Assembly: GCF_001562015.1 (NCBI RefSeq)
Contig: NZ_LASA01000009.1
Span: forward strand, 1 to 33,829
Length of the DNA: 33,829 nucleotides
Direction of reading: 5' to 3'
From: Endozoicomonas arenosclerae
GTDB lineage: Bacteria > Pseudomonadota > Gammaproteobacteria > Pseudomonadales > Endozoicomonadaceae
The position numbers and the translations under genes were made by a program. The notes beneath the pieces were generated by a model. The model had not been told where the DNA came from. It made no database searches and saw nothing but the letters and a program-made list of their open reading frames with translations. Positions 1-24,862 of the stretch are shown piece after piece; within the stretch, counting starts at the first letter, position 1; every line of letters begins with the position of its first letter.

Positions 1-153
1 GGAACGGTATTTGAAGTGGCTGAGGGTTAGCTCAATCCAACGGTAACATTCGTCCTTGGAGTCCCAGCCGGGCTCCAGACAGTCTGCTTGTGAAAGGAGG
101 CTTCTTACATCCTCCAGGGTTTTGATGAAATGGGTGTTCATGATGATTTTCAT
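1..153 (-). CDS. Probable transposase/integrase, N-terminal fragment (runs off the window edge)
   Basis: An open minus-strand frame of 51 codons runs from an ATG at 153 (or 141) to base 1 without a stop. The peptide contains GWDSKDECYRWIELTLSHFKYRS (split here as GWDSKDECYRWIE and LTLSHFKYRS). The pattern W-I-E-x-T-L-x-x-F-x-Y resembles, from memory, the N-terminus of DDE integrase-core transposases, ahead of the helix-turn-helix region. The catalytic part lies outside the window, so this is a family guess. A 12-bp direct repeat (GGCTCATTTCAT at 183-194 and 220-231) lies just upstream and could belong to the end of the element. The position just upstream of rpoZ, where gmk often sits in gammaproteobacteria, suggests an insertion there. 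Confidence 0.5.
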   Translation of the reverse strand, partial: MKIIMNTHFIKTLEDVRSLLSQADCLEPGWDSKDECYRWIELTLSHFKYRS

Positions 154-316
154 ATCCTCATCATGAACGACAGTGCTGAAGTCGGCTCATTTCATGTTAG
201 AAACCAGCCCCTTCTTCAGGCTCATTTCATATTGGAAGAGACTCGGGCTTGTTTGGACTCAGGTCGTAAAGTACACTGTAGTGTCGGCAAACTGGCTGTT
301 TTGGCCATGGGAATCG

Positions 317-5372: not shown

Positions 5373-5942
5373 TTATAAGTTCAGGTATTGTTTGCGGGTC
5401 AGACCGTAGATCACTCTGTCTTCATCCGGAGCGTAATAACCGGCCTGATGCCCCTCTTTTACCATGCCAGACTTCATCATGACTCGTTCTGAGCCTGTAT
5501 TGTTGGCATAGCAGTCTGCCGTGACCTTATGAGCATCCAGCTGGTCAAAGGCATATTGGATCAGCATCTGACAACCCTGTGAGGCCAGTCCTTTTCCCCA
5601 GGCTCTTTGGGGAAGCTGGAAGCCCACTTCATAGACACCTGCCGTCATGGCTGCAGGAACCAGACCCAGCATGCCTGCAAAGTGGTTTGATTCCGCCTCT
5701 CTGATAATCAGCGTAATACTGGGTTCAGCTTTTCCAGACAATGCGGCTTCGTTTTGCTCCGCAATAGGCAGAAAGTAGTCGCGGTAGACACTTTCAGGTG
5801 CTGGAGCAAAGGGCAGGTAGCGAGTGACCTGCTCATCTCGAAGCATGAAAACAATGTCGTCAATATCGGAAGGCAGTAACAGTTTGATGAGATAGCCTTC
5901 CCGTAAGGTTTGGGGGCTATGGGCTAAAAAACGTTTTTCCAT
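5373..5942 (-). CDS. GNAT family N-acetyltransferase (RimJ/RimL-like)
   Basis: A 189-aa acetyl-CoA-dependent N-acetyltransferase of the Acetyltransf_3 type. Motif A is visible as YEVGFQLPQRAWGKGLASQGCQMLIQYAF, including the acetyl-CoA loop R-A-W-G-K-G-L-A. The next segment, DAHKVTADCYANNTGSERVMMKSGM, carries the N-x-x-S and MxKxGM elements typical of RimJ/RimL and spermidine-type enzymes. The substrate is unknown. The gene starts 11 bp after the rsgA-like stop, so the two are probably one transcription unit. A link to ribosomal protein acetylation would fit that pairing but is only an inference. Confidence 0.85.
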   Translation of the reverse strand: MEKRFLAHSPQTLREGYLIKLLLPSDIDDIVFMLRDEQVTRYLPFAPAPESVYRDYFLPIAEQNEAALSGKAEPSITLIIREAESNHFAGMLGLVPAAMTAGVYEVGFQLPQRAWGKGLASQGCQMLIQYAFDQLDAHKVTADCYANNTGSERVMMKSGMVKEGHQAGYYAPDEDRVIYGLTRKQYLNL

Positions 5943-19877: not shown

Positions 19878-21563
19878 ATGAAGCATTATGTATTGATCAG
19901 TGCCTGCCCTTCTGGGGTGGCAAGCTGTTTTCTTGCAGCCGATAAGTTATCTCGGGAAGCCTCTACTAAAGGCATTCAGCTGAGTGTTGAAGTTGATAGC
20001 GCTCTGACCAGTGAGCGATTGGAAGCCTCTGTTTTTGACAGCGCGGATTGTGTTCTGGTGGCCAGTGAAACCATCAGTAGTTCTCTGGCTGAAAGGTTGG
20101 AAGGGTTGCGCGTTTTCAAAACTTCTGCCCAGGCTATTCTCGACAACCCTGCCGCTGTTCTTGATCAGGCAGAAGAGAATGCCCAGCCACTGGAAGCCAG
20201 TGCAAAGGCACCCAAAGTGGTAGCTGTCACGGCCTGTCCAACAGGTGTCGCTCATACTTTCATGTCTGCTGAAGCTCTGGTGGAAGCCGGTAAATCACTG
20301 GGCTACGGGATTCTGGTGGAAAAGCAAGGATCTGCTGGCGCTAAAGACTCTTTGACAGCAGAACAGATCGCCGAAGCAGATGTTGTAATTCTGGCTACTG
20401 ATATTGAAGTGGATACCACACGTTTTGCCGGTAAAAAAGTGTTCAGGACTTCCACGGGTGAAGCGCTGAAAAAGTCTGAATCTGTTTTGAAGAGAGCTCT
20501 GACAGAAGGCAGTGAACTTAAAGCTCAAGCTGCAGCCAAAACTGCGATCGAGAAGAAAAAAGCTTCCGGTGCTTATCAGCATCTGTTGACTGGTGTCTCC
20601 TATATGCTGCCTCTGGTAGTGGCAGGTGGCCTGATCATCGCTCTGTCTTTTGCATTTGGTATCAATGCTTTTGAGCAGGAAGGAACGCTGGCTGCTGCCT
20701 TGATGAGTATTGGTGGCGGCAGTGCTTTTGCTCTTATGGTGCCGGTTCTGGCTGGGTATATCGCTTTCTCTATTGCTGAACGCCCTGGTCTGGCACCGGG
20801 CATGATTGGCGGTATGTTGGCTTCTACTCTGGGAGCAGGTTTCCTGGGCGGTATCATTGCGGGCTTTATAGCGGGTTATTCCGCCAACGGTGTAAAGAAA
20901 GCTGTACGGCTTCCGGCAACTATGGAAAGCCTGATGCCAGTCCTGGTGATCCCTCTGCTGAGTTCGTTGATCACCGGGTTGTTGATGATTTATGTCGTGG
21001 GTGCTCCTGTAAAAAGCATCATGGACACCATGACGGCTTTCCTGCAAAGCATGAATGGTACCAATGCATTGCTGTTGGGTGCACTGTTGGGGGCGATGAT
21101 GGCCTTCGATATGGGTGGGCCTGTCAACAAAGCCGCTTATACATTTGGCGTAGGTCTGATTACCAGTCAAACCTATGGTCCTATGGCTGCGGTTATGGCC
21201 GCAGGTATGGTGCCTCCTCTGGGTCTGGCCCTGGCGACTATTCTGGCAAAGAAGAAGTTCAGCAAAGAAGAACTGGAAGGTGGCAAGGCTGCCGGTATTC
21301 TGGGGCTTTGCTTCATTACCGAAGGCGCCATTCCATTTGCGGCCCGTGACCCTTTACGAGTGATTCCCTGCAGTGTGGCGGGTTCAGCCCTGACTGGCGC
21401 TATTTCCATGTGGATGGGCATTGGCCTGAAAGCGCCTCATGGTGGTGTATTTGTCATGATGATTCCAGAAGCCATCAGTAATGTGGGTGGGTATGCCATG
21501 GCTATTGCTTTGGGTACCATTGTGACCGGTGTCGTCTACAGCGCACTGAGAAAAAATCCCTGA
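19878..21563 (+). CDS. fruA: Fructose-specific PTS enzyme IIB'BC, FruA
   Basis: The membrane permease that imports fructose and phosphorylates it to fructose-1-phosphate. Two EIIB-like domains come first: an N-terminal B' (ISACPSGVASCF, about 5-80) and the true EIIB (about 103-200) with the phosphorylated Cys120 in VTACPTGVAHTF. The EIIC membrane domain (about 222-561) has hydrophobic segments such as MLPLVVAGGLIIALSFAFG and the family stretch MAFDMGGPVNKAAY; it ends with ITEGAIPFAARDPLR. The ATG at 19878 is preferred because GAGG lies seven bases upstream of it. An in-frame ATG at 19866 is also possible. Its 3' end overlaps the convergent S10 peptidase gene by 28 bp. Confidence 0.95.
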   Translation: MKHYVLISACPSGVASCFLAADKLSREASTKGIQLSVEVDSALTSERLEASVFDSADCVLVASETISSSLAERLEGLRVFKTSAQAILDNPAAVLDQAEENAQPLEASAKAPKVVAVTACPTGVAHTFMSAEALVEAGKSLGYGILVEKQGSAGAKDSLTAEQIAEADVVILATDIEVDTTRFAGKKVFRTSTGEALKKSESVLKRALTEGSELKAQAAAKTAIEKKKASGAYQHLLTGVSYMLPLVVAGGLIIALSFAFGINAFEQEGTLAAALMSIGGGSAFALMVPVLAGYIAFSIAERPGLAPGMIGGMLASTLGAGFLGGIIAGFIAGYSANGVKKAVRLPATMESLMPVLVIPLLSSLITGLLMIYVVGAPVKSIMDTMTAFLQSMNGTNALLLGALLGAMMAFDMGGPVNKAAYTFGVGLITSQTYGPMAAVMAAGMVPPLGLALATILAKKKFSKEELEGGKAAGILGLCFITEGAIPFAARDPLRVIPCSVAGSALTGAISMWMGIGLKAPHGGVFVMMIPEAISNVGGYAMAIALGTIVTGVVYSALRKNP

Positions 21564-23032
21564 CCCTTGATTATGAGCCCGGAAAGATCCGGGCTCCAGG
21601 CTATTTGCCCCTCACCAGTCAGGTCTTCTGTTCTAACCGGATCCTGCAGTTTAAAAAACCATTGGCTCATGCTGTCCTGTCGTACAAAATTCTGCATCAT
21701 ATCGAAGGCAAACTTTGGCTGGTCCATCGGTACCAGGTGACCTGCTGTTGGAAAAGTAAACAATGTCAGGTTGCCGGATGAGCGAACGGTCTGGTAAGCC
21801 TGATCATACTCGTCAAAGAAATCTTTCTGCCCGGTAGCAAGAAAGTCCTGCTTACCGCTCCAGTCTATGGTTTGCAGCCAGGAAATGGTGGCAAAGTTGT
21901 TGCAGCACATATCCTGATCCCCTGAATAAATCAGTACCGGCATGGATTCAATCAACGTGGGGAATAGCTCGCTCCTGGAGTTCTGTTCTCCGGCTGCAAA
22001 CTGGTCTGCTACCCAGTTATTGGTGTCGTCCCATTTTTTAGTGGCAACAGAAACGGCATTAATGGCGGTTCTTACATCATCGCGGTTAAGGTACTGACCC
22101 AGAGCCTTGAAAACGTAATCAGGCCCTCTTCTGCGAAAATCATATAAGTTTCTTTGTGAGTCTTTCACCACTATGTTCACAGCCTTCATACAGTAATCGT
22201 TGACCCACTTTGGAACGGTATAACCCTTAAACTTCAGAATCTGCGTTGTACAGTTGTCTGCCATGGTTTTTGTCTGGTTGAACTGGGTATACGTCAGTGT
22301 TCCGTGTTCACCTGCAAATACCGGCATAAGAGGGTTCTGTATGGCTGGGTCTACCCACGGGTTGCCTAGGGATATTTTGACCAGCTTGATGGTTGAGTTG
22401 GACGGATCCTTGTTCATCTCAAGGATCTTGGTGGCAATACTGGGTACATAGTGTCCACCAAATGATTCACCGGCAATAATGAGAGGGCGCGAGCGGAAGT
22501 TCTTGTCCTTATGATTATCCAGAAACGCCTGAATACCTCGGTAAAGTTGTTCCGTGGCTTCTTCTTCATTCTGGGCTGCAGCGGCCTTAGTGGTACTGAA
22601 AGACAAGCCCGTACCTGCTGGTTGGTCTATGGCTAAATAGGCTGCAATTTTGTGCCATGAGTAGAGGCGGGGCTTGATGAAGTTGCTGCTTTTTTCCATT
22701 GCAGATGGATCAATGTAGAAAGGACCATTCTCCATAAAAAAACCGTCCAGACTGGAAGAACCGGGTCCTCCATTAAGCCAGATCACAATCGGACTTGTGT
22801 CATTGCCATTCCCAGACTCTGCAAACCAGTAAAAGAGGAAAGCTTCTCCACCGTCGGATGCTGTGTTGACTTTCAGGTGGCCTGCCTCCTGACCCTCAAT
22901 AGTGCCTGTATATCCGGGCAGACTCGTTACTGGTGCTGGAGGTATGGGTTCCTGCGGGTTGGAAGGAGAGGCTAGAGTGCTAAGCGACAGTAATAGAGTA
23001 ATGCCGGCAAGCAGAGTGCGAAGTCTAAGCAT
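21536..23032 (-). CDS. Secreted serine carboxypeptidase, peptidase family S10
   Basis: A 498-aa alpha/beta-hydrolase peptidase that removes C-terminal residues from peptides at acidic pH. A Sec signal peptide is clear (MLRLRTLLAGITLLLSLSTLA, cleavage near 21). Family motifs: WLNGGPGSSS (85-94), the catalytic Ser190 in GESFGGHYVP, the Asp box YSGDQDMCCN (D371/D373) and His431 in TAGHLVPMDQP. Cysteines at 260, 280, 375 and 376 could form the disulfides known in this family. S10 enzymes are mainly eukaryotic (plant and yeast vacuoles, animal lysosomes), and the protein reads like them throughout. Its last 28 bp overlap fruA. A Fur box lies about 130 bp upstream, though it better fits a small RNA on the other strand. 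Confidence 0.92.
   Translation of the reverse strand: MLRLRTLLAGITLLLSLSTLASPSNPQEPIPPAPVTSLPGYTGTIEGQEAGHLKVNTASDGGEAFLFYWFAESGNGNDTSPIVIWLNGGPGSSSLDGFFMENGPFYIDPSAMEKSSNFIKPRLYSWHKIAAYLAIDQPAGTGLSFSTTKAAAAQNEEEATEQLYRGIQAFLDNHKDKNFRSRPLIIAGESFGGHYVPSIATKILEMNKDPSNSTIKLVKISLGNPWVDPAIQNPLMPVFAGEHGTLTYTQFNQTKTMADNCTTQILKFKGYTVPKWVNDYCMKAVNIVVKDSQRNLYDFRRRGPDYVFKALGQYLNRDDVRTAINAVSVATKKWDDTNNWVADQFAAGEQNSRSELFPTLIESMPVLIYSGDQDMCCNNFATISWLQTIDWSGKQDFLATGQKDFFDEYDQAYQTVRSSGNLTLFTFPTAGHLVPMDQPKFAFDMMQNFVRQDSMSQWFFKLQDPVRTEDLTGEGQIAWSPDLSGLIIKGQGFFLSAL
21575..21596. terminator. Hairpin behind fruA, inside the end of the S10 gene
   Basis: GAGCCCGGA (21575-21583) and TCCGGGCTC (21588-21596) make a perfect 9-bp stem with a 4-base loop, 12 bases after the fruA stop. 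There is no T-run. It probably ends or stabilises the fru mRNA, and it lies inside the last codons of the convergent peptidase gene. Confidence 0.6.
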
Positions 23033-23137: not shown

Positions 23138-23178
23138 TTGCAAACTGCCTGATTAGATATAGAATGATAATCATTCTC
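23138..23178 (+). promoter_or_regulatory. Sigma-70 promoter with overlapping Fur box
   Basis: TTGCAA (23138-23143) and TAGAAT (23160-23165) are spaced 16 bp. A Fur box at 23160-23178 matches 16 of 19 positions of the classical consensus GATAATGATAATCATTATC by my own count. It covers the -10 element and the expected transcription start. Iron-loaded Fur would block this promoter, and iron starvation would release it. Confidence 0.8.
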
Positions 23179-23302
23179 ATTAACAATAAAAAAGGAGATG
23201 CCTATCGAAACCAGACTTTTTGACCTGATTAACTGGTAAACAGCTACCAGTAACTCGCATATCCTCATCGTTTTGGCGGCTCGTCCCAAGCCGCCTTTTT
23301 TT
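23172..23302 (+). ncRNA. Candidate Fur-regulated small RNA (RyhB/PrrF-like by design)
   Basis: The promoter and Fur box drive transcription to the right, and 130 bases later there is a strong intrinsic terminator, with no convincing gene between. The predicted RNA is about 131 nt. It contains a 7-bp hairpin, ACTGGTA/TACCAGT (23232-23238 with 23245-23251), an unpaired stretch CGCATATCCTCATCG (23257-23271) and the terminator hairpin. TCCTC in the unpaired part is complementary to ribosome-binding sites of the GAGGA type, as a translation-blocking seed would be. A U-tail and adjacent hairpin would suit Hfq binding. The sequence does not obviously resemble E. coli RyhB or Pseudomonas PrrF; the analogy is in layout only. 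Confidence 0.7.
23275..23302 (+). terminator. Intrinsic terminator of the candidate small RNA
   Basis: GGCGGCT (23275-23281) and AGCCGCC (23289-23295) form a 7-bp GC-rich stem, followed by seven T residues. It is functional only on the plus strand. Both neighbouring genes are on the minus strand, so it needs an unannotated plus-strand transcript to make sense. Confidence 0.9.
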
Positions 23303-23352: not shown

Positions 23353-24717
23353 TCAGGCATCATCAAGTTTCAGGCTCTGCAGTTTATCGAAAAGAGGTCT
23401 AATGACTGTTAAATGTTCTTCGGCATATCGCTGTTTTTCCGAGATGGTTAGCTCTTCTGGACTCTGCTCGGTTTTTATTGTTTCTTCCAATGCCTTTTGT
23501 CCCATATTGAAAATATAACGGCTAGATAATGCTAAGGGGCGATAACCAAAGCCGATAAGCATGCCCTGTAGCCAGAGAATTGCGACTCGGGTGTTGGCAT
23601 CCGGGAAGGGTCTGAGACTGAGAAGCTCTAGTATTGAAGTGGATACAGTTTCATACAGCTGAGCCTCAGTTTGTATGCCCTGCATTTTGGCTGAGGTCTC
23701 TGAAAACCAGTGGTCCAGTGGTGCTCTAATGAATTTGTCAGGCAGTTCGTTGTAGCGCAGAAAGGCAATTCCTTCCTGTTGCAACCGGGGGATCATGGCA
23801 TTAATCGTGCTGTGGACCAGGCTGTAACCCCCTTTGCCTTTGAACTTATCTAATGTGTATTTCCATCCCAGCACCATGCTCAGTTCGTGAGGGTTTACCT
23901 TATTAAGGGCCTGAAGGTAAGAATCTAGATCCTGTCGTGAGCAATAGTAAGCTGCTACTTCTTCCATGAATGCCTGAGCCTCAGCTCTGGAACCGGGAGG
24001 CTGTTGATAAAGCTTTACGGCCAGCTCAACAGGCACAGCCAGATAGATATCTTTATTATTGATAAACACTCTGAAGCAGAAAGGAGGTAATTCCGGCAGA
24101 CCTGCTAATTGACAGGCTTTATCCAGCTTCTCTTTGGATTCGTAGAGTGTCGCCTCAGAGCATTCGGACTCTGCATACTTTTTTACACAAGGAGCGTCAT
24201 GCCCATAGACGGGTTGTTTCAAAACCTTATGCTGGGTAGGAATGTATCGGAAGTCCCCTGCCCTGTATGTTGTTGAGGAGAAACCTGAGCAATCTCGTGG
24301 ACCATGCTCAAAGCTGTGTGAATGAAGATCTTGCAGCAAAGATTCCAGCTCAGAGGGTGAGGTGAAGCGGCCATTGCTTATGGCATCAACCATAAAGATC
24401 CAGCTGTTCACCAGGCTCTGACCTTTGCCTTTTTCTTCACTATGATAATTCTCCCATTGAGTCAGCGCTTTCTGATCAAAAACGATTGGCAGAAGCTGTT
24501 CAGGCGACAAGCCTTTAAGATGCTTTAAGCCTTCATAGCCCGGTTTAACCAAAGGAGACGCTTTGCTTAAATCCCGGAAAGTGGAGGTGGGCAATGCCTC
24601 TGGCTCCGGAATTTCCTTTTTATATTCAGCAGGATTGTCTCCAGACTCTTGCTCAGAAAGAGCCGGATTAGATGAATAAATTTCCTTGCCCGTTGGTTTG
24701 GGTGATGTGGGTTCCAT
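23353..24717 (-). CDS. Fic-like domain protein with degenerate active-site motif
   Basis: A 454-aa soluble protein from the ATG at 24717; an in-frame GTG at 24744 would add nine residues. Near residues 369-377 it reads RPFPDANTR, aligning with the Fic motif H-P-F-x-D/E-G/A-N-G-R. The catalytic His is Arg and the second Gly is Thr, while P, F, D, N and R are kept. The helices around it (ETVSTSILELLSL before, VAILWLQGMLIGFGYRPL after) fit a Fic core. Active Fic proteins transfer AMP or other phosphate-linked groups to target proteins; with Arg for His this one may be inactive or work differently. The first ~60 residues are polar and probably disordered. It may be a secreted effector, but no secretion signal is evident. 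Confidence 0.7.
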   Translation of the reverse strand: MEPTSPKPTGKEIYSSNPALSEQESGDNPAEYKKEIPEPEALPTSTFRDLSKASPLVKPGYEGLKHLKGLSPEQLLPIVFDQKALTQWENYHSEEKGKGQSLVNSWIFMVDAISNGRFTSPSELESLLQDLHSHSFEHGPRDCSGFSSTTYRAGDFRYIPTQHKVLKQPVYGHDAPCVKKYAESECSEATLYESKEKLDKACQLAGLPELPPFCFRVFINNKDIYLAVPVELAVKLYQQPPGSRAEAQAFMEEVAAYYCSRQDLDSYLQALNKVNPHELSMVLGWKYTLDKFKGKGGYSLVHSTINAMIPRLQQEGIAFLRYNELPDKFIRAPLDHWFSETSAKMQGIQTEAQLYETVSTSILELLSLRPFPDANTRVAILWLQGMLIGFGYRPLALSSRYIFNMGQKALEETIKTEQSPEELTISEKQRYAEEHLTVIRPLFDKLQSLKLDDA

Positions 24718-24862
24718 GCCTCTTCCGTCCCTGATATGAAACACTAATCCTGTTTTTACTATAGGAGCGAGTTAACCACAGAGACATTAGATTCAGTTTT
24801 TTTTCATCCAATTTCCGAAAAATGAGGTATAACCTTCTACGGACCAAAGGAGGAAAGTGTTA

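Follow-up and report, generated by a model that had tools for sequence, protein, structure and literature searches.

A predicted PrrF-like iron-sparing small RNA of Endozoicomonas, absent from Rfam, and its predicted targets

In the Endozoicomonas arenosclerae DNA analysed here (the window, 33,829 bases in full), two minus-strand open frames enclose a plus-strand unit that begins with a promoter and ends with an intrinsic terminator. Its parts and neighbours, in coordinates of the window, are as follows.

21536-23032, minus strand: flanking frame of 498 aa
23138-23165, plus strand: sigma-70-like promoter, TTGCAA-16-TAGAAT, 9/12 consensus match
23160-23178, plus strand: Fur box over the -10 element, 16/19
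23172-23302, plus strand: predicted small RNA of about 130 nt, its start placed about 7 nt after the -10 element
23194-23201, plus strand: GGAGATGC, the GGAG of which is invariant in 16 homologues
23219-23230, plus strand: segment A, TTTGACCTGATT, a 12-nt complement of the sodB leader of the window's genome
23232-23251, plus strand: central hairpin ACTGGT...ACCAGT, 6 pairs, with compensatory changes
23254-23269, plus strand: segment B or seed, CTCGCATATCCTCATC, predicted to pair with ribosome-binding sites
23262-23269, plus strand: TCCTCATC within the seed, common to the PrrF core
23275-23302, plus strand: intrinsic terminator and U tail, stem 23275-23295 followed by TTTTTTT
23353-24744, minus strand: flanking frame of 463 aa, between the small RNA and gpx

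A preliminary description of this DNA had reported the promoter with its overlapping Fur box and the terminator on the same strand. This observation is confirmed, the terminator ending 137 bases past the promoter. Matches of such promoter quality are not rare in the region (6 found between 20000 and 27000, 8.8 expected). The Fur site is the only one in the 33,829 bases of the window when the Fur consensus is scanned with at most 3 mismatches, where 0.01 would be expected; the matches at 23160-23178 (+) and 23166-23184 (-) are overlapping readings of this one site. The terminator is the richest in G-C pairs (6/7) among the 10 terminator-like sites of the region.

The RNA 23172-23302 has a predicted fold of -30.5 kcal/mol (z -3.1), which is equalled by 1 of 200 shuffles. 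In this fold GGAG of GGAGATGC pairs with part of the seed, a closing helix that is absent from some minimum-energy folds. The TCCTC stretch, previously considered unpaired, is thus partly paired in the predicted fold. As to the surroundings, the 463-aa frame bears a very weak similarity to the XopAC/AvrAC effector family of NCBIfam (E 0.0009, 18 bits, cut-off 450) and is not found at the corresponding place in genomes G002, G003 and G008. The start of a 16S rRNA gene is located at the contig end (33719-33829, +).

A DNA search of 57 related genomes identified the unit in five more genomes of the same genus (G004, G003, G002, G008 and G001), and a short seed pattern retrieved ten more in a sister genus (g7), in which a Fur-like box and the seed stand approximately 145-165 bases apart. 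A covariance model of the RNA core (R1, 23190-23302), built from the same 16 sequences that it recovers, gave strong matches (E 2e-14 to 1e-26) in 16 of 37 family genomes, one per genome. These are 6 of the 10 genomes of the window's genus (g1) and 10 of the 12 of g7; the carriers that have names are Endozoicomonas and kin. Weak matches in G019 and G021 (E 0.2-0.7) and weak second ones in G004 and G026 were not counted. Both g7 genomes without a match, G033 and G057, are fragmented, and gpx was likewise not found in either.

The preliminary description had proposed a covariance search in relatives and expected promoter, hairpins and terminator to be shared by them, and the entire unit is indeed kept in these 16 genomes. 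A -35/-10 pair scoring 8-9/12 and a Fur box of 14-16/19, always beginning at the first base of the -10 element, are present in all 16 homologues, as are the blocks GACCTGA and TCGCA(A/T)ATCCTCATC. The central hairpin, predicted earlier from the window, is 100% paired across 15 distinct sequences. Two of its pairs are changed on both sides, including a C-G/U-A switch between genera; single changes of A-U to G-C and of A-U to G-U also occur. Its paired cells and covariation score were reached by none of 500 shuffles, and the number of doubly changed pairs was equalled in 55 of 500. The terminator is found in 16/16, its stem in the sister genus keeping the structure with different letters.

An exact pattern searched over 84,980 species retrieved 19 stretches, 12 of which belong to Endozoicomonas or kin (one of these labelled Oceanospirillales Hp36, one labelled Salinisphaera). 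The other seven are scattered and are read as chance matches; such a pattern would miss diverged forms. A chance origin of the unit itself is excluded mainly because it is conserved in 16 genomes.

Two structural variants were seen among the homologues. In the sister genus, where the predicted RNA is about 190 nt long, an extra 5' hairpin, GGCTCAAC...GTTGAGCC, is present (e.g. L063, about 2957-2993) that the six carriers of the window's genus lack; its C-rich loop CTCTCCCC might serve as a further arm for binding. The loop of the central hairpin is about 35 bases longer in two of 16 homologues, those of G008 (L079, about 5559-5593) and G001 (L007).

Four genomes of the window's genus (G005, G006, G007 and G009) gave no R1 match. 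A diverged copy was sought in them and rejected: a pattern of Fur box plus GGAG occurred in 0/4, and the region upstream of gpx contained no such RNA. Fur-like BLAST matches were obtained in G005, G006 and G007 and none in G009, and no small RNA was seen at them. In G005 (L239, about 444-485, +) and G007 (L241, reverse strand) the Fur-like box directly precedes a protein gene whose ribosome-binding site reads GATGAGG.

Complementarity to sodB was found in every carrier. In 16/16 the sodB leader contains an uninterrupted stretch of 7-12 nt complementary to segment A, with duplexes of -10.0 to -19.5 kcal/mol, and GACCUGA is the predicted sodB-leader-pairing block of the RNA. The best sodB duplex in the four genomes of the same genus without the RNA is -6.4 to -8.8 kcal/mol, and the homologous place in their sodB reads GATC (G005, G006, G007) or GATT (G009), as opposed to GGTC in carriers; G005 still has a 7-nt A-rich sodB stretch. 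Two outside genomes without the RNA reached -11.3 and -12.5 kcal/mol with one or the other RNA. Shuffles were run for five carriers, and 1, 3, 0, 2 and 25 of 500 matched the duplex. The match begins 38-64 nt upstream of the start codon, off the ribosome-binding site.

Pairing across genera is asymmetric. RNAs of the window's genus form stronger duplexes with g7 sodB (-14.1 to -16.1 kcal/mol, five tested) than the cognate g7 RNA does, and g7 RNAs pair more weakly with sodB of the window's genus (-8.4 to -12.1, six tested). Lineage-specific co-evolution is therefore not supported. The g7 sodB leader further contains TTTGCGAA, an 8-nt complement of TTCGCAAA located beyond the hairpin, and this second half of the site is co-linear in 10/10; by energy it does not surpass shuffles, of which 149-360 in 500 were as good.

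The other arm of the RNA was compared with start sites. TCCTCATC of segment B is complementary to GATGAGGA, and two genomes per genus (G000, G002, G035 and G030) were surveyed for GATGAGGA followed by ATG within 10 bases. This gave 60, 28, 32 and 25 matches (145 over the four genomes). A script read 110 distinct contexts; the other G000 matches were read separately or are the small RNA itself, and seven GATGAGGATATG matches near G000 contig ends, presumably more copies of the repeated element described below, were left out. Sites were kept if they start an open frame no shorter than 80 aa that is preceded by no more than 30 in-frame codons, which yielded 21 gene-start sites representing 15 distinct genes.

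Four genes have a seed site in both genomes of a lineage, and all four encode iron proteins as judged by Pfam or NCBIfam similarity or, for one of them, by its cysteines; leuC alone passes its NCBIfam cut-off. These are leuC and a FadH-like flavoenzyme in G000 and G002, petB of the bc1 complex in all four genomes and, in G035 and G030, a PreT-like protein that contains a 4Fe-4S domain. The FadH-like enzyme was assigned by eye, from its 4Fe-4S-type cysteine pattern. If one protein in ten is taken as an upper estimate for the use of iron, four of four would be expected by chance about once in 10,000, a post hoc figure without a matched control. The complementarity of TCCTC to GAGGA-type ribosome-binding sites, noticed from the window, thus extends to the fronts of iron-protein genes.

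Three iron proteins were matched in one genome each. The first is a HiPIP, by Pfam; the second resembles YgfK, a 196-aa fragment scoring 297 bits where the cut-off is 835; the third is PhoX-like, a kind of protein that uses iron. The remaining 8 of 15 genes have no iron link: a chromate transporter, a YcsF/PxpA-like protein (by eye), an AAA protein and five nameless ones. The family libraries were compared with the 15 genes except L203, L327, L332 and L339. The petB duplex amounts to -25.0 kcal/mol in g7 and -23.9 in G002; its site overlaps the end of petA, and its conservation may reflect petA coding sequence. Duplexes of HiPIP, L205 and L339 were equalled by 24-27 of 200 shuffles (HiPIP by 27).

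Target prediction at the 5' regions of iron-protein mRNAs, suggested earlier as a check, hence returned sodB, leuC, petB and the FadH-like and PreT-like genes and failed for sdhC. The latter, a classic target and one of those of RyhB, showed no conserved complementarity to the RNA across 10 genomes (a 10-nt stretch occurs in G026 alone) and was rejected.

A repeated element occupies positions 1-190 (-) of the window and was read at 17 further places of this genome, mostly near contig ends. It is probably insertion-sequence-like. Its open frame begins with GATGAGGATATG, which complements the seed perfectly over 12 nt; in G002 this 12-mer was found only in the small RNA itself. The RNA could bind the start site of the element, and the complementarity is probably a coincidence.

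Since layout and seed recall PrrF, the two RNAs were compared. No Rfam family reaches its threshold at this RNA in the window's genome or in the other carriers, which agrees with the earlier suggestion of a possibly undescribed member. The PrrF model (RF00444) scores 17.2 bits in the window and 24.3 in G008, the best case, against a gathering score of 90 bits; in a search across the 16 homologues, a PrrF match up to E 10 was obtained in G008 as the sole exception, the other 15 giving none. From the PrrF core UCUCCUCAUCAGGCUAAUCACGG (model consensus) only the UCCUCAUC part is present, and the remaining AGGCTAATCACGG is missing from the Endozoicomonas RNA. The claim that the RNA has no obvious sequence likeness to its functional counterparts therefore fails for TCCTCATC, common to the PrrF core, and holds for the rest, which is largely different and is rejected by the PrrF model.

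PrrF matches of 57-71 bits were detected in sister genera in which the R1 RNA was not found (4 of 6 genomes in g5, 2 of 2 in g8) and in no carrier of this RNA, in a genome-wide search whose strict filters discard weak matches. Of the 57 genomes, only G054 passes the family cut-off. Both models were searched in 36 genomes of the family, and no genome matches both strongly. The loci are also different: PrrF is found beside an mrcB-like gene and this RNA beside recG or gpx, as judged from four g5/g8 PrrF loci with genes named by eye except gpx. The RNA is thus classed as PrrF-like in its predicted function and its seed, and not as a PrrF member, its scores being below the cut-off and its locus different.

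According to PMC4211561, PMC13104616, PMC12004955, PMC5501646 and PMC5815094, PrrF was discovered by a search for a Fur site plus terminator, is Fur-controlled, has sodB and other iron-protein mRNAs as targets and acts on antR in an Hfq-dependent manner. Both RNAs have a Fur box over the promoter, a similar length and a terminator, and they share sodB as a target (for PrrF as stated in PMC13104616, here as a prediction). The present RNA differs from PrrF in that it is devoid of AGGCUAAUCACGG, contains an extra sodB-pairing block, occupies a different locus and gives one strong match per genome. RyhB of enterobacteria is comparable in the predicted role, being Fur-repressed and acting on iron-protein mRNAs (PMC4211561). 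It differs in that Rfam gave no match to it here, whether at the gathering threshold over the window or, at the locus, with E values up to 10, and in that sdhC is not predicted as a target. ArrF of Azotobacter is comparable as an iron-linked small RNA acting on sodB, according to the title of a reference in PMC4211561.

These comparisons bear on the origin of the RNA. It might descend from PrrF as an orthologue that has diverged strongly in Endozoicomonas, which would be compatible with the mechanism proposed below. The Fur box over the promoter common to both RNAs points in this direction, as does UCCUCAUC shortly before the terminator (directly before it here, some 20 bases before it in PrrF). 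The confinement of the 57-71 bit matches to sister genera where this RNA was not found does so as well. Against this stand the scores below gathering, the missing AGGCTAATCACGG and the different locus, and a single shared 8-mer may equal convergence on the ribosome-binding site. We consider descent from PrrF a serious possibility, at slightly less than even chances. It is rather unlikely, in our view, that a separate family unrelated to PrrF replaced it in Endozoicomonas and converged on a ribosome-binding-site seed, with two arms flanking one hairpin.

Another explanation takes the unit for a dual-function RNA or small mRNA under Fur, with GGAG(NTG)CCTATCGAAACC...TGG-TAA encoding a peptide of 11-13 residues that ends in DLINW. 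Within the window's genus, frame and stop survive a 3-base indel and several synonymous changes in the six carriers (by eye). However, the NTG start directly abuts GGAG with zero spacing, and a normally spaced start would be ATC or ATT. The frame is different in the sister genus, with a one-base shift in G035 (by eye), and the GACCTGA block is accounted for by sodB complementarity, translation being unneeded. A conserved small peptide was rejected, as the frame is maintained in one genus only, and a coding function is very improbable.

In a further, very unlikely explanation the unit would serve the glutathione peroxidase gene (gpx) downstream, as a leader or attenuator under Fur control that is read through: gpx is the next same-strand gene downstream in the g7 loci examined and in G003, G008 and G001, but a minus-strand gene separates the terminator from gpx in the window, the RNA is intact in G002 and G004 with no gpx among the downstream frames listed, and G005, G006, G007 and G009 have gpx with no small RNA seen upstream. 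In the latter four genomes gpx comes shortly after a recG-like gene (named by eye), and no such RNA was seen in the gap between them. Because the RNA persists where the downstream gene differs, it is not the leader of that gene. Given the variable gpx neighbourhood and the gap devoid of the RNA in four genomes, the RNA is a cassette of its own, which lineages have gained or lost. The earlier statement that both flanking genes lie on the opposite strand is accordingly true of the window (21536-23032 and 23353-24744), and in several relatives the downstream gene is on the same strand. On the strand opposite to the recG-like frame of G002 and within its bounds, a sub-threshold match to the Yersinia small RNA Ysr141 was noted (L125, 170-424, -; 46.7 bits, cut-off 196), perhaps due to coding conservation.

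The reading that we prefer, at a probability of roughly 0.8, is that the locus encodes a trans-acting iron-sparing small RNA of about 130 nt, whose seed and GACCUGA arms are predicted to act on iron-protein mRNAs. Comparison of sequences thereby supports the interpretation offered in the preliminary description, a Fur-controlled candidate small RNA of RyhB/PrrF layout; Fur box, promoter, hairpin, seed and terminator are all conserved in 16 genomes. From the computed anatomy, conservation and complementarities we infer its transcription, its control by Fur, its binding by Hfq and the direction and effect of regulation. When iron is present, Fur-Fe(II) would occupy the -10 element and block transcription. 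When iron is absent, the RNA would be made, end at the terminator and presumably be held by Hfq via its U tail. The seed UCCUCAUC would then pair with GAUGAGGA-type ribosome-binding sites of iron-sulphur and haem mRNAs (leuC, petB of the bc1 complex and those for the FadH-like and PreT-like enzymes) and block their translation. GACCUGA, on the opposite side of the central hairpin, would pair with the sodB leader well upstream of the start codon. As with PrrF and RyhB, the outcome would be that dispensable proteins consume less iron.

Bacteria of the genus Endozoicomonas are widely distributed as partners of corals and other marine animals. Searches of open-access papers for iron or small RNAs in these bacteria retrieved no title or abstract start that describes such an RNA. 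The predicted RNA is a further representative of a known functional class, known here through comparison. Should the two-arm reading be true, one arm would serve iron-sulphur and haem start sites, and both would clamp the 5' part of the sodB leader. With sister genera carrying either PrrF-like RNAs or this one, the family may offer a case of turnover among iron-sparing RNAs, and for Endozoicomonas a candidate regulator would be defined, together with a small set of predicted targets.
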